NCBI GenBank assembly: GCA_013697735.1
Contig: JACCWH010000159.1
Coordinates: 1 to 45,593 of the forward strand
Reading direction: 5' to 3'
Origin: Trueperaceae bacterium
GTDB lineage: Bacteria; Deinococcota; Deinococci; Deinococcales; Trueperaceae
DNA length: 45,593 nucleotides
Under the pieces are notes generated by a model. That model saw only the letters and a list, made by a program, of their open reading frames with translations. It was not told the origin of the DNA and searched no databases. This document shows, one piece after another, positions 4,542 to 10,093 of the stretch; positions within the stretch are counted from its first letter, which is position 1; each line of letters opens with the position of its first letter. The translations under genes were made by a program, and so were the position numbers.

Positions 4542-4658
4542 ATGTGCGGCAGTCGGATTCGCAACGCTCGGATGCAAGCGGCGCGCGGACGTGAACGGAG
4601 CGCAGAGCGTTCACGACCGCGCTGCGTAGGCTGGTCGTGGTCGCCGAGCACGTGGTAG
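4542..4658 (+). CDS. Possible leaderless upstream ORF, 38 aa
   Basis: TACGAT (4528-4533) ends 8 nt before an ATG that opens a 38-codon frame. Its stop TAG is the first half of the TAGCCT -10 box proposed for the LysM/M23 gene. The peptide is Arg-rich (MCGSRIRNAR at the start) and matches nothing known. It could be a leader peptide or only a chance open frame; the main reason to list it is the promoter spacing. Confidence 0.25.
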   Translation: MCGSRIRNARMQAARGRERSAERSRPRCVGWSWSPSTW

Positions 4659-4669
4659 CCTTTCGAGCA

Positions 4670-5890
4670 ATGCGGCTGACACGTGGTTCTCTGTTTGCAA
4701 TCGTTTTCTTCACATGCTGTTTTGCTCCCTCGTTCGCCCACGCGGGCGGCGTGACCGTTCGGGCCGGAGACTCCCTGTGGAGCCTCTCCCGTGCCCACGG
4801 CACCACGGTCGAGGCGCTGAAGAGAGCGAACGGCCTGACGACCGACCGGCTCGTTCCGGGCACGGTCCTCCGCCTCCCGGCGGACGCATTGGTGAGCGAG
4901 GGCGCCCAACCGACGACCTTCGAGAGCTACGTCGTTCGACCCGGCGACACGCTCTACGACATCGCCAACTTGCACGGTGTGGGCGTCGACGACCTGATCG
5001 CCTGGAACGACCTCGACGGAACGCTCATCCGACCCGGTCAGACGCTCTCGCTCCGCGCCCGCGCCGGCGAGACGCCCCCGGCGCCCCTCACCGTCACCGT
5101 GCAGCCCGGCCACAGCCTCTGGCAGCTCGCCCGAACACACGACACCACCGTCGCCGCCATTGCGACCGCGAACGGGATCTCGGTGAACGCCGTACTGACC
5201 GTCGGCCAGTCGCTCACCATCCCGGGGCGCTACGCCGCGGTAGGGGCGGTCGCGGGCACGGATTCAGAGTCAGGGCCCGATCTCGGCGGTCCAGCACCCG
5301 AGACGATCGTCGTGACACCGGGCGAGTCGCTCTGGCAGATCGCCCAGCGAAGCCGCACCAGCGTGAGCGAGATCATGGCGCTCAACGGCCTCCAGAGCGA
5401 CCGCCTGCACGTCGGGCAGTCCCTCCGGGTGCTCCCCACCGCCGCGCTCGGGCCCGCCCGCGAGATCGAGTTCACGCCGCGACCCGACGTCGGCGGTACG
5501 GCGATGGTCTGGCCGCTCGTGGGCAGCATCACGTCGCGCTTCGGGTATCGCCGACTTCGCATCGCCGGCACCAACATGCACTACGGACTCGACATCGACG
5601 GCAACGTCGGCGATCCAATCCGCTCCGCCAGCGCCGGCACCGTCACGTTCTCCGGCTGGCGCGGCGGGTTCGGCTACCTGGTGATCGTCGAGCAGGGAGA
5701 CACGGAGTACTACTACGCGCATGCCTCGGAGCTGCTGGTGAGCGAGGGCCAGTCCGTGGCGCCCGGTCAGGTGATCGCGCGCGTCGGCGCGACCGGCAAC
5801 GTCACCGGCCCCCACCTACATTTCGAGGTACGTGTCGACGGAACCGCCGTCGACCCCCTGCCCATCCTCGAGGCGCGCGCGAGCCGCTGA
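4670..5890 (+). CDS. Secreted LysM-repeat M23 (LytM) peptidoglycan endopeptidase
   Basis: Predicted exported murein hydrolase or activator. The 406-residue protein starts with a signal peptide (MRLTRGSLFAIVFF, cleavage after AHA), followed by four LysM repeats at about residues 28-70, 80-125, 140-185 and 212-255 (each with GDSLW, GDTLY, GHSLW or GESLW). A C-terminal M23 domain carries the zinc motifs HYGLD and HLHFEV plus the YYYAH segment, so it appears catalytically intact. ATG 4670 is preferred to the upstream GTG at 4637 because it directly precedes the signal peptide and TAGCCT (4656-4661) ends 8 nt before it. LysM would hold it on peptidoglycan. Confidence 0.92.
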   Translation: MRLTRGSLFAIVFFTCCFAPSFAHAGGVTVRAGDSLWSLSRAHGTTVEALKRANGLTTDRLVPGTVLRLPADALVSEGAQPTTFESYVVRPGDTLYDIANLHGVGVDDLIAWNDLDGTLIRPGQTLSLRARAGETPPAPLTVTVQPGHSLWQLARTHDTTVAAIATANGISVNAVLTVGQSLTIPGRYAAVGAVAGTDSESGPDLGGPAPETIVVTPGESLWQIAQRSRTSVSEIMALNGLQSDRLHVGQSLRVLPTAALGPAREIEFTPRPDVGGTAMVWPLVGSITSRFGYRRLRIAGTNMHYGLDIDGNVGDPIRSASAGTVTFSGWRGGFGYLVIVEQGDTEYYYAHASELLVSEGQSVAPGQVIARVGATGNVTGPHLHFEVRVDGTAVDPLPILEARASR

Positions 5891-5909
5891 CGCGCCGCGA
5901 GCATCCCCT

Positions 5910-6704
5910 TTGCATCTCGTCGTCATCGGTGACATCCACGCCCAATCCGGCAAGTTCTGGCGGATCCTGCGCGAGGCCGATCTGGCCGGCGACGACAAGC
6001 TACCAACGGATCGCCTGACGGGATCGGCCGACGTCCGGCTGGTGTTACTCGGCGATCTGGTGCACGCCAAGAGCCGCGAGCGCTACGGCGACCTCACGGG
6101 CGTCCGGCGCTACGACGAATACAATCCGCGCCACCTCGAGAAGGCGGAAGCCGCACAGGAGGTCTTCCTGCGTGAGGTGCTCGCCTTCCAGGAGCGCGTG
6201 CCCCCGGGGCGGATGACGATCCTGCTCGGCAACCACGACTACAACGCCATCGCCGACGATCAAGGACCGCTCCGCACCGACGACGTCTCTCATCTCGAAT
6301 GGAAAGCGAACTACGGCAACCCCCTCCCCGACGACCTACGGGCGTGGATCTCGGGCTGGGCCTCGGAGCACGTCATCGAGGGGCTCCACTTCGCCCACGT
6401 CGGGCCGCTGCCAGAACACAACACCTACGACAACGGCTTCTACCTCGAGAATCGTCGTCGCTGGATCTACGACGAGCGCGACTACCTCGACGGTACGCCG
6501 CACCGCCTCGGCGTCTACGGACACACCCCCGTTCGTGGCGGTGTCAACATCGCCTCGCAGGGGCGCGCAGTGCTGCTCGACACGAACGGCCAAGGCGACG
6601 AGTACGCCTACCTCGACCTCCAGGTGACGAAGGAAGGCTACCGTCTGCGGATGCGCGGGCTCTTCTTCGACGAGCTGATCGCGCGCGACCTGGCGCGGGG
6701 CTGA
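5910..6704 (+). CDS. Calcineurin-like metallophosphoesterase
   Basis: Member of the PPP/calcineurin-like phosphoesterase superfamily. Motifs in order are GDIH, GDLVH, GNHD and GHTP, giving the full dinuclear metal-binding set; no signal peptide is seen, so it is probably cytoplasmic. Residues 130-200 include an unusual aromatic and charged insert. The start is uncertain: TTG 5910 places the first beta-strand (LVVIGDIH) right at the N-terminus but lacks a clear ribosome-binding site, while a GTG at 5832 would overlap the M23 gene by 59 bp and add an unlikely Arg/Ser-rich stretch. The substrate cannot be told. It follows the LysM/M23 gene closely and may be cotranscribed. Confidence 0.8.
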   Translation: MHLVVIGDIHAQSGKFWRILREADLAGDDKLPTDRLTGSADVRLVLLGDLVHAKSRERYGDLTGVRRYDEYNPRHLEKAEAAQEVFLREVLAFQERVPPGRMTILLGNHDYNAIADDQGPLRTDDVSHLEWKANYGNPLPDDLRAWISGWASEHVIEGLHFAHVGPLPEHNTYDNGFYLENRRRWIYDERDYLDGTPHRLGVYGHTPVRGGVNIASQGRAVLLDTNGQGDEYAYLDLQVTKEGYRLRMRGLFFDELIARDLARG

Positions 6705-6753: not shown

Positions 6754-8715
6754 TCAGGGCGCCGCGGGAGCGACCATCGGTGGCGCCCCCAGGATCGTGG
6801 TGCGCTCGAACGACGGCGTGAACACCACCCACGTCTTGAAGGGCTCGAGATCGATACCTCCGTCGGCGGTCCGGAACCGGATGCCCTGTCCCGCGCGCAT
6901 CTCCCAGAAGCCGCGCACGGCCTTCCCGCGCACGAACAGCGTGGCGTCGCCTCCGCGGAGCGGAATGTAGAGCCGCCCTTCGGCGTCGCCCGGGATGGCG
7001 CGGGCCTCGATCGACGCGACGAGCACCGCGTCGACGAGCACGGCTTCGCCGTTCGCGTCGCTGGCACCATCGCCGTTGCGGAGCCAGCGATAGGCGTTGA
7101 TGCCGCTCTCGTAGCGGAAACCGGTCTCATACGTTGCGCCGTAGCGTACGCGCAGCTCGGTAGCGTCGAAGAGCTCCTCGGCTGGGCGGAAGATGGTGCC
7201 CGTCACCGTTCGGCCTCGGCCCATGTCGATACGGTTGACGGCCGTGCGCAACGCGTCGCCGCCAGCGAAGAGGTTGTACGGTGCGCGGCCGTCGCTGCGG
7301 CTGAAGAGATCACCGCTGGTGAACGAGTTGATGGTGCGCGCGGCGGTCGTCTGGATCGACGTCATCGCCCCGGGAGAGCCGCCGTCGTGTACGAGAACCG
7401 CGTCCATGCTTCGCGCGAGTTCGACGAAGTAGTCGCGGGCGCTGCGCACGGGCCCGACGCGCTCGGGATCGGTGCGGTCGAAGACGAGCAACAGCCGTGT
7501 CAGCCCCCCCTCCACCGGCATCTCGTGGATTTGCGACGCCGGCCGAAGGCCGTGCTGTGGGTACCCCGCTACGTTGTCGACGAGCACCGCGAAGGGTCGG
7601 GCGAGCTCCTCGCGAAATGGTGCGCGCGGTGGAGCGGGCGATCCCGTCGGGTTCAGGCTCCCGTCGGGACTGGCCGCGGCGCCACGACCGACGGCCGCCT
7701 CGTCGATCGCGGGACCGGTCTGGCCGGCGCGAGGCGCGTCGCCGCCCGCGGGGGTGTCGAGATCACGCGTCGACCGCGTGGTCGTGGCAGCAGCGGCAGC
7801 GGCGGCATCGATCGTGGGCGCTTCCGTGGAGGGGATTGGGCCGATCACGTCGGCGCGGAGCTGCGGCGTGGGTACGGTCCGCGTGGCAGCGACGGACACC
7901 TGCGGCGTCACACCGACCTCGCGTCCGGGACTGACGCTCGCCTGCACGTCGGGGAGCGTCACGGGGCGCGACGCGGCGACCTGCGTCGACACCTGCGGCG
8001 TCGGCACGGGCGCCGCCTCCGCGACCGAAGCGCGTACGTTCGGGAGCGGGACCGCCTCGGCCGTCGCCACCGTCACCTGCGGCGTGGGTGCGATCGCGCG
8101 GACTTCGGGTACCACCGCGCTCACCGCCGGGGCCGGTACGGGGACGCGCTGCGCGAGTGGCGCCGGCTCGATCTCGGGGATGTCGATCTCGGGCAATGGT
8201 GTGGTGGGCACGTTCGCGACGGGCACCTCGGGTGCCGGAGCCGGGAGCGTCGGCTCCGGGCGCGGTGGCGTGGGAGCGGTCTCGGCCTGCTCCGGCGCCG
8301 CCGGTGCGGGCGCTGGGGTCGGCGGTTGCGCCGTCTGCGGCGTCGGATCGGGCGTCGCGGGCTCCGGCTCGGGGGCCGCGGCGGCTTGCGGCTCGCCGAC
8401 CTCGATGTCTTCGACCTGCGGGCGCGCCGTCTGCGGCGCGGCCTCCTCGGACGTCGGCGCCTCGACCGTCTCTTCGGCCAGGGCGGGCGTGCCGATGTCG
8501 ATCACCAGATAGGTCGGCGGCGCCACGAACGGCTGCGGACGGAGTAGCCACACGGCCAAGAGCAGCACGAGCAGGTGCAGCACGCTCGAGAGCAAGGCGG
8601 CGCGGCGGCGGTCACGATCACGCCACCATCGCCCCCACCACGCGCCCATGCCGACCCTCGCGGAGGCGAAGAGCTCACCCGCGGTCGGTCGGCGTGCCGG
8701 AGACGCGTTCGCCAT
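6754..8715 (-). CDS. TonB-like membrane-anchored protein with C-terminal DUF3048 domain
   Basis: A 653-residue protein encoded directly after exbB and exbD. Residues 39-60 form one transmembrane helix containing S43-x3-H47, the spacing of the conserved Ser/His pair in the TonB anchor that couples to ExbB/ExbD. Residues 75-370 are a long Pro/Ala/Glu-rich stretch with imperfect PTPQV and LPDVQASV-like repeats, resembling the TonB periplasm spanner. From residue 373 a DUF3048 (YerB-like) region begins with RPFAVLVDNV, followed by MPVEGG and GPVRSAR; it replaces the usual TonB C-terminal domain. Its biochemical role is unknown; DUF3048 proteins I know of are mostly lipoproteins. Inferred role: proton-motive-force-driven work on the envelope. 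The ATG has GAGGG 4 nt upstream. Confidence 0.85.
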   Translation of the reverse strand: MANASPARRPTAGELFASARVGMGAWWGRWWRDRDRRRAALLSSVLHLLVLLLAVWLLRPQPFVAPPTYLVIDIGTPALAEETVEAPTSEEAAPQTARPQVEDIEVGEPQAAAAPEPEPATPDPTPQTAQPPTPAPAPAAPEQAETAPTPPRPEPTLPAPAPEVPVANVPTTPLPEIDIPEIEPAPLAQRVPVPAPAVSAVVPEVRAIAPTPQVTVATAEAVPLPNVRASVAEAAPVPTPQVSTQVAASRPVTLPDVQASVSPGREVGVTPQVSVAATRTVPTPQLRADVIGPIPSTEAPTIDAAAAAAATTTRSTRDLDTPAGGDAPRAGQTGPAIDEAAVGRGAAASPDGSLNPTGSPAPPRAPFREELARPFAVLVDNVAGYPQHGLRPASQIHEMPVEGGLTRLLLVFDRTDPERVGPVRSARDYFVELARSMDAVLVHDGGSPGAMTSIQTTAARTINSFTSGDLFSRSDGRAPYNLFAGGDALRTAVNRIDMGRGRTVTGTIFRPAEELFDATELRVRYGATYETGFRYESGINAYRWLRNGDGASDANGEAVLVDAVLVASIEARAIPGDAEGRLYIPLRGGDATLFVRGKAVRGFWEMRAGQGIRFRTADGGIDLEPFKTWVVFTPSFERTTILGAPPMVAPAAP

Positions 8716-8722
8716 ACGACCC

Positions 8723-9142
8723 TCAGTTCCCCGCGGCGATGGCGATGCGCGTGGCGCCCGACTGCTTGATCAGGTCCATCACCCGCACCACCAGCGAGTG
8801 GGGAACGGTCCCGTCTGCGCGCAGCACCACCGCGCTCTGCCCACTCGCCTCGATGAGGTCGGCGAGGAGCGCGGGGAGCGTGTCGAGACCGACCGCAGCG
8901 CCGCCGACGAAGATCTGCTCGTCACGCGAGACGGTGACCGTCGGCCACTCCGTAGGCGTCGCCTCGGCGGTCTGCGCCTGCGGGAGGTCGACGGGGAGCC
9001 CGGTCTCGAGCGAGATGAACGTCGTGGAGACCATGAAGAAGATGATCAGGAGGAAGACCACGTCGACCATTGCGGTGAGGTCGAGACCCACCGGGTTGCG
9101 ACCGAACCGCGCCCGGGCGGGCGTGAAGCGTCGCGAAGCCAC
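8723..9142 (-). CDS. exbD: ExbD/TolR biopolymer transport protein
   Basis: Inner-membrane subunit of a proton-driven ExbB/ExbD-type motor. The 139-residue protein has a short cytoplasmic N-terminus, one transmembrane helix with the essential Asp in LTAMVDVVFLLIIFF (about residue 27), and a periplasmic domain. GTG 9142 begins right after the exbB stop and the gene ends 7 nt before the TonB-like gene, so the three form one operon. TolR and ExbD cannot be separated by sequence; no tolA, tolB or pal is present, and the TonB-like neighbour favours the ExbD label. Confidence 0.92.
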   Translation of the reverse strand: MASRRFTPARARFGRNPVGLDLTAMVDVVFLLIIFFMVSTTFISLETGLPVDLPQAQTAEATPTEWPTVTVSRDEQIFVGGAAVGLDTLPALLADLIEASGQSAVVLRADGTVPHSLVVRVMDLIKQSGATRIAIAAGN

Positions 9143-10093
9143 TCAGGCCTCCTCGTCGCGATCGCGCGGTACTCGGAGCGAGCGGACGTGCCGATCGATC
9201 TCCTCGTCGTTGGGTTCGCTGCCGAAGAGCGGCGCCGTGGGCTCGGCAGCTTCTGACCGCGTCGCATCGTGCGGCCGTGCCGGGGGCCGGGGCGTGGGCC
9301 GCGTGGCGTCGTACCCTGGACGGGCCGACCCGGTAGCCGCCCCGATGGGCGCGACGACGGGCGTCGAGCGCTCACGTACCCGGACGTGAGCGTCCGCGGG
9401 CGCCGCCGCGACCGGCGCAGCCTCGCCGACGCGCGGCGCCGGAGCCGATGCGGCCGCACCCTTCGCGGCGTCGTCCTTGTCCTTGCGCGAGGAGACGGTC
9501 TGCACCACGTTCGCCATGAGCTCTTCACGGCGCCGATCGACCTCGAGCAGGATGGTGTCGACGCGGCTCGCGAGGTAGTTCTGGCCGATCAGCGTCGGGA
9601 TCGCCACCACCAGACCGGCGGCGGTGGTGACGAGCGCCTGACCGATACCCCCGGCGAGCACCGCGGGATTTCCCGTGCCCGAGACACTGATCTCGCCGAA
9701 GGCGATGATCATCCCCGTCACGGTACCGAGAAGCCCCATCAGCGGCGCGACCTGCGCGATGGTGGCGAGCGGGCGGAGACCCTTCGTGAGGCGCTGCTCT
9801 TCTTGTAGCGACGCCTCCTGGAAGGCAGCCTCGACCGCCTGGCGCCCGTAGGGGAGCCGGAGGAGCGCAGCGTGCAACACACGAGCGACGGGGCCGCCGT
9901 GCTGCTCGCACGCGTCGAGCGCGAGTTCGAGATCGCGATCACGCACCGCGGCGTTCACGCGCGACATGAGCTGATCGGCGTCGAGTCGCTCGCGAGAGAG
10001 CTTGAAGAACCGGACCAGGAACAGGTACACGGCGTAGATCGACAGCAAGGCGATGGCCAGCAGGACGATGCCGCCGGAGATCAGAAGGTCCAT
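9143..10093 (-). CDS. exbB: ExbB/TolQ/MotA-family proton channel protein
   Basis: Membrane scaffold that forms the proton path with ExbD. The 316-residue protein has a first transmembrane segment at about residues 3-28, a cytoplasmic domain, then two helices at about 110-195 containing VAPLMGLLGTVTGMI and GIGQALVTTAAGLVVAIP, the MotA_ExbB signature. Unusually, about 110 residues of Ala/Pro/Arg-rich tail follow (205-316), predicted cytoplasmic and absent from most ExbB proteins. ATG 10093 is chosen over upstream starts because GGAG lies 7 nt before it and it directly precedes the first helix. First gene of exbB-exbD-TonB-like. Confidence 0.92.
   Translation of the reverse strand: MDLLISGGIVLLAIALLSIYAVYLFLVRFFKLSRERLDADQLMSRVNAAVRDRDLELALDACEQHGGPVARVLHAALLRLPYGRQAVEAAFQEASLQEEQRLTKGLRPLATIAQVAPLMGLLGTVTGMIIAFGEISVSGTGNPAVLAGGIGQALVTTAAGLVVAIPTLIGQNYLASRVDTILLEVDRRREELMANVVQTVSSRKDKDDAAKGAAASAPAPRVGEAAPVAAAPADAHVRVRERSTPVVAPIGAATGSARPGYDATRPTPRPPARPHDATRSEAAEPTAPLFGSEPNDEEIDRHVRSLRVPRDRDEEA

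Follow-up and report, generated by a model that had tools for sequence, protein, structure and literature searches.

The subject of this report is a three-gene operon in a 45,593-nucleotide stretch of DNA (the window), positions 1 to 45,593 of contig JACCWH010000159.1 in assembly GCA_013697735.1, which is one contig of a 3.52-Mb metagenome-assembled genome (MAG) of a Trueperaceae bacterium. The genes exbB, exbD and a tonB-like gene, whose product we refer to as the arm, lie head to tail on the (-) strand and are read as one operon, exbB and exbD adjoining (0 intergenic bases) and exbD being separated from the arm gene by 7 bases. The three open reading frames of the initial annotation (ExbB 10093-9143, ExbD 9142-8723, arm 8715-6754) were recovered at the same coordinates. 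A scan of genome contigs returned a single close relative, a MAG of the Trueperaceae with 82% identity. ExbB, ExbD and DUF3048 are each represented once in the genome, the DUF3048 protein being the arm itself. The features of the operon are as follows:

9143..10093, (-) strand: exbB, motor ring subunit, 316 amino acids (open reading frame; Pfam MotA_ExbB, E 1.4e-30)
8723..9142, (-) strand: exbD, motor axle subunit, 139 amino acids, GTG start, with a periplasmic D-box-binding domain (open reading frame; Pfam ExbD, E 2.5e-28)
6754..8715, (-) strand: tonB-like arm gene, 653 amino acids, comprising anchor, D-box-like strand, disordered spacer and DUF3048 head (open reading frame, Pfam, phmmer, AlphaFold2)
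8542..8601, (-) strand: transmembrane anchor helix of the arm, spanning about residues 39-58 and containing S43-x3-H47 of the SHLS motif (motif as in PMC12215075)
8485..8511, (-) strand: D-box-like strand at residues 69-77, YLVIDIGTP, with prolines on both sides, a predicted ExbD-binding handle (D-box as in PMC10907165)
7624..8484, (-) strand: Pro/Ala-rich spacer, residues 78-364, predicted to be disordered (composition and AlphaFold2)
7624-7752, (-) strand: linker GG(D/N)A..GQTG...AA.PDG...TG.P, about residues 322-364, directly before the head and kept in Trueperaceae
7234..7605, (-) strand: DUF3048 N-terminal domain (PF11258), residues 371-494 (Pfam, E 5.6e-31)
6826..7152, (-) strand: DUF3048_C (PF17479), residues 522-630 (Pfam, E 1.5e-9)

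The two motor proteins carry the MotA_ExbB and ExbD domains together with residues of the proton path: Asp27 of ExbD aligns with Asp25 of the E. coli protein, the proton carrier, and the threonine-containing motifs GTVTG and VTTAAGL of ExbB are retained. The coupling of ExbB, ExbD and the arm as a motor, predicted from homology, is well supported. ExbB ends in an Ala/Pro-rich tail of about 110 amino acids, to which the initial annotation had drawn attention. The tail is real in the window, but the long form is limited to the closest relatives, the length elsewhere ranging in most cases from a few residues to about 45, and it is thereby ruled out as a conserved part of the design. For the relatives' genomes we infer the family names used below (Marinithermaceae for f3; Deinococcaceae/Thermaceae-type for f2, f4 and f5). 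In the Marinithermaceae a Glu occupies the site of Glu176 in E. coli ExbB, the Ser of the first transmembrane helix of ExbB is replaced by Thr, and the Ser/His pair of the anchor has been lost.

The arm had been described initially as a TonB-style anchor (S43-x3-H47 in the helix) and a roughly 300-residue Pro-rich spanner, followed from residue 373 by DUF3048 in place of a TonB/TolA C-terminal domain, and all three parts of this description hold. A Ser-x3-His motif is present in the membrane helix of each of the 31 Trueperaceae anchors examined (the window positions were counted by eye); in TonB and TolA the Ser/His pair touches ExbB/TolQ (PMC12215075). The D-box of E. coli TonB, ISVTMVT, joins the ExbD dimer as an added strand (PMC10907165), and the window strand matches its hydrophobic/polar pattern by eye at 5 of 7 positions. 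A D-box-like strand is found in the arms of both families that carry DUF3048, including arms which lack Ser/His. AlphaFold2 modelled the anchor helix and the head with confidence and the spacer as disordered. The latter measures 289 amino acids (21% Pro, 20% Ala), and the spacers of homologous arms, of 258-464 residues, are likewise Pro/Ala-rich and predicted to be disordered. By comparison with E. coli TonB the window spacer is about three times longer. A 15-residue periodicity (P.P.V.A.V..A) is detectable in the Trueperaceae spacer set (0.21 vs a shuffle maximum of 0.03), and is not seen in Marinithermaceae. In the window spacer taken alone the best lag is 8, equalled by 21 of 300 shuffles, and the 15-residue period is not convincing; on this result and the disordered model a folded repeat was rejected.

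The head was identified by three methods. Only DUF3048 domains exceeded the Pfam cut-off in the arm, at the residues which the initial annotation had predicted, a TolA C-terminal domain being absent; residues 372-641 match Bacillus subtilis YerB [phmmer, 2.1e-29; 2psb]; and the modelled head (mean pLDDT 92) has YerB as its sole true neighbour in the PDB [Foldseek, 1.6e-25; TM-score 0.81]. Foldseek returned no other PDB fold match below E 0.1 and none in a viral structure library. With YerB as the only PDB neighbour the fold is an orphan, and an attempt to derive a function for DUF3048 from fold yielded nothing further. Of 5.4 million papers searched, one names DUF3048, as a family of unassigned function; YerB is merely listed in the literature searched, as a lipoprotein not yet characterised, and two of these entries are in gene lists associated with sporulation.

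Residues Asn17, Glu38, Arg43, GPxR, Arg60 and Arg63 (domain numbering) are common to the arm heads and the stand-alone forms, from which it appears that the head probably retains the ancestral site. The strong conservation of this polar cluster (Asn17, Glu38, Arg43, Arg60, Arg63), which extends to the YerB-type stand-alone proteins, would suit an enzymatic role, in which DUF3048, as a hydrolase or transferase, has wall polymers as substrate and is swept or activated by the motor. We consider such an enzyme on an energised tether quite improbable, since the PDB offers no catalytic fold neighbour and His79 is not kept in the DUF3048 of Actinomycetota. A third argument comes from a Trueperaceae genome (G012) with a second DUF3048 gene:

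L062:3089-5038 (G012:C109), (-) strand: protease-DUF3048 fusion in a Trueperaceae MAG in which the standard operon is also present

This 650-amino acid frame joins a secreted trypsin-like protease [PF13365, 1.6e-28] to DUF3048 [9.6e-27] and has no motor anchor. The Ser of GPVRSAR is replaced by Gly in this paralogue, where the protease already supplies catalysis. The fusion thus favours a binding or targeting module over an enzyme.

Among 111 Deinococcota genomes searched, 44 DUF3048 genes were found in 43 genomes, all belonging to two families: the Trueperaceae, the family of the window (f1; 34 genomes), and the Marinithermaceae (9 genomes). Thirty-five of the 44 stand in third place in an uninterrupted exbB-exbD-arm unit. 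The other nine comprise seven cut by contig ends, one which keeps exbD before the contig end, and the protease fusion; where the upstream context is complete, the operon is kept at 35 of 36 loci. ExbD was matched at most once in each genome searched. Homologues with a separate DUF3048 gene, unlinked to exbBD, would have refuted the initial annotation; what was found instead is a domain joined to the anchor in one protein, encoded next to exbBD. In a tree of ExbB and ExbD the two families group together, apart from f2 and f5, which have other heads (support 0.999). That the window derives from a MAG might raise the suspicion of an accidental fusion or an assembly artefact without function, but the identical unit at 35 loci, including the single-contig genomes G008, G014, G017 and G038, and the low divergence of the head among homologues make this extremely improbable; an assembly artefact is ruled out by the 35 operons.

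Beyond the unit the flanking genes vary between families and between some genera, while the three genes persist. In about 20 Trueperaceae loci, the window included (4637-6704, (+) strand), the operon is approached convergently by genes for a peptidase with four LysM and an M23 domain and for a calcineurin-like phosphoesterase. A function derived from the neighbours (LysM-M23 peptidase, phosphoesterase, PEP (phosphoenolpyruvate) carboxylase, YmdB) was rejected, these recurring genes probably representing general synteny which is lost in Marinithermaceae and in other genera.

The usual partners of such a motor are missing. The Plug domain of TonB-dependent receptors was not found in the window genome and was found in 2 of 61 relatives; the TonB C-terminal domain (TonB_C, PF03544) is absent from the arm by Pfam and from the window genome, with one of 61 genomes positive; and the OmpA/Pal family (PF00691) has no member in the window genome. 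In genome G021, one of the two relatives with Plug, the Plug contigs have a GC content of 0.43-0.52 vs about 0.69 for the contig of a congener, the only TonB_C match sharing one of them, and these contigs are probably contaminants. ExbD itself occurs in 44 of the 61 relatives sampled, although Plug and TonB_C are practically absent from them. The genome does contain Omp85 and OmpM/SlpA-type SLH proteins, and an outer membrane is therefore to be expected. Since Plug, TonB_C and OmpA/Pal are missing, the organism cannot run Ton or Tol-Pal in their customary form, though it retains its sole ExbBD pair, and classical versions of both are ruled out.

A TonB-like import function could still be imagined, in which DUF3048 stands in for the TonB C-terminal domain and opens an outer-membrane barrel of a non-plug type. 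The TonB-type anchor, the D-box-like strand and the Pro-rich spacer would suit it, as would the large OmpM-type SLH protein. We regard it as unlikely, given that the window genome has no plug domains, that the operon has no linked gene for an outer-membrane protein, and that DUF3048 is also found in monoderms, which makes an outer-membrane gate an improbable basic ligand for a domain also at work in cells lacking that membrane.

In monoderms the domain has a different carrier. The plasmid-borne DUF3048 genes read (Rossellomorea, Streptomyces, Nonomuraea, Subdoligranulum) are stand-alone only, and all begin by eye with a lipobox-like segment, so that the domain would act at the outer face of a membrane even where the cell has no outer one; in Gram-positives it sits on the wall side. 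The YerB/DUF3048 lipoproteins of Bacillota and Actinomycetota share the fold and the conserved residues of the window head, but they are lipid-anchored products of open frames of about 340-470 amino acids, and two annotated neighbourhoods contained no exbBD. The arm, for its part, has a transmembrane anchor and a spacer of ~290 amino acids in place of the lipobox.

The Deinococcaceae/Thermaceae loci (f2, f4, f5) are built on a similar plan, the motor genes preceding an arm in which a low-complexity spacer follows an anchor of the TonB type (Ser or Thr-x3-His). In four of six such loci (L080, L081, L084, L085) the arm ends not in DUF3048 but in an unrelated domain of ~115 amino acids, A2, and is followed by a fourth, conserved gene for a secreted protein; the remaining two arms end at contig edges. 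A2 has no Pfam or PDB match, the secreted protein no Pfam match, and the four genomes contain neither Plug nor TonB_C. The different C-terminal domain of these arms indicates that heads have been swapped.

With the Ton system the window operon shares the motor genes, the S-x3-H anchor, a strand after the transmembrane helix resembling the D-box, and a Pro-rich spacer; it differs in having DUF3048 for TonB_C, in the lack of TonB-dependent receptors from the genome, and in an arm which is always within the exbBD operon. With Tol-Pal it has in common a motor and arm in a single operon of a diderm and a likely role in envelope upkeep; the differences are the lack of the OmpA/Pal family, a head which is not the TolA C-terminal domain, and the absence of the helical TolA domain II. 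The operon is thus a variant of the ExbBD-driven force transducer, Ton-like in motor and anchor and unlike Ton in head and receptor. The closest precedent is provided by the motor-driven transducers with vWA heads (Williams-Jones 2025, PMC12204202), which are encoded beside motor genes and have an SHLS anchor and a head other than that of Ton, joined by a disordered Pro-rich linker, the head having a vWA fold vs the YerB fold of the window protein. The Ton survey in that paper used PF03544, PF16031, PF00593 and PF07715, a set of profiles that would miss the window system, and its main text contains no occurrence of Deinococc- or DUF. The claim of the initial annotation that no system of this design had been described must accordingly be narrowed: the vWA-headed sister case dates from 2025, and no DUF3048-headed one was present in the literature searched.

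We think it somewhat probable that the operon encodes a trans-envelope transducer driven by the proton-motive force, the head of which pulls a ligand in the wall or inner envelope for the upkeep of the envelope. The proposal made at the outset, of an energised machine in the envelope that combines a TonB-like arm with a head of DUF3048, is supported by the conservation of the design in 35 operons, in genomes without receptor plugs or TonB_C. In this transducer ExbB and ExbD would form the motor, and the arm would dock twice, its transmembrane helix on ExbB through the Ser/His face, while the ExbD dimer would take up its D-box-like strand. The disordered spacer of roughly 290 residues would carry the head far into a wide periplasm, where DUF3048 would bind a cell-wall or inner-envelope ligand common to Trueperaceae and Gram-positives; pull and release of the ligand may serve coordination of wall and outer membrane, in a Tol-like manner, rather than nutrient import. 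It is a side arm of the TonB type, and not ExbD, that bears the head, and a spacer of 258-464 residues is a poor rigid anchor. The stand-alone lipoprotein of monoderms and the protease fusion fit a wall-facing binding or targeting module, and we infer for the head a wall-associated ligand that Gram-positives share with these diderms.

Several observations weigh against this transducer. None of five Marinithermaceae anchors has S-x3-H, from which it follows that docking on ExbB is different in that family. The likeness to the D-box is partial (LVIDIGT vs ISVTMVT). Gln152 of ExbB (window about 9640-9638) stands at the position of E. coli Glu176, and is Gln in all Trueperaceae, and the Trp38 position of ExbB appears not to be retained. 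The missing TonB-dependent receptors could also point to an unrecognised outer-membrane protein as the target.

The tasks usually ascribed to ExbBD and TolQR motors are receptor-driven import and the mobilisation of Pal. Here an entire lineage retains an ExbBD motor without either target, fitted with a head which is also widespread in Gram-positives. A wider reading, which we advance tentatively and hold to be possible rather than probable, is that of a third class of ExbBD-type machine, neither Ton nor Tol, in which the head grips a wall polymer common to Gram-positives and Deinococcota, the phylum having replaced Ton and Tol by motors with exchangeable heads. Cultured carriers appear to exist (Truepera, Marinithermus, Oceanithermus), and the system is therefore open to testing. 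If the interpretation is true, the heads of these motors are exchangeable, the operon is a candidate power source for the outer envelope in Terrabacterial diderms without Tol-Pal, and DUF3048 would have its first functional setting.

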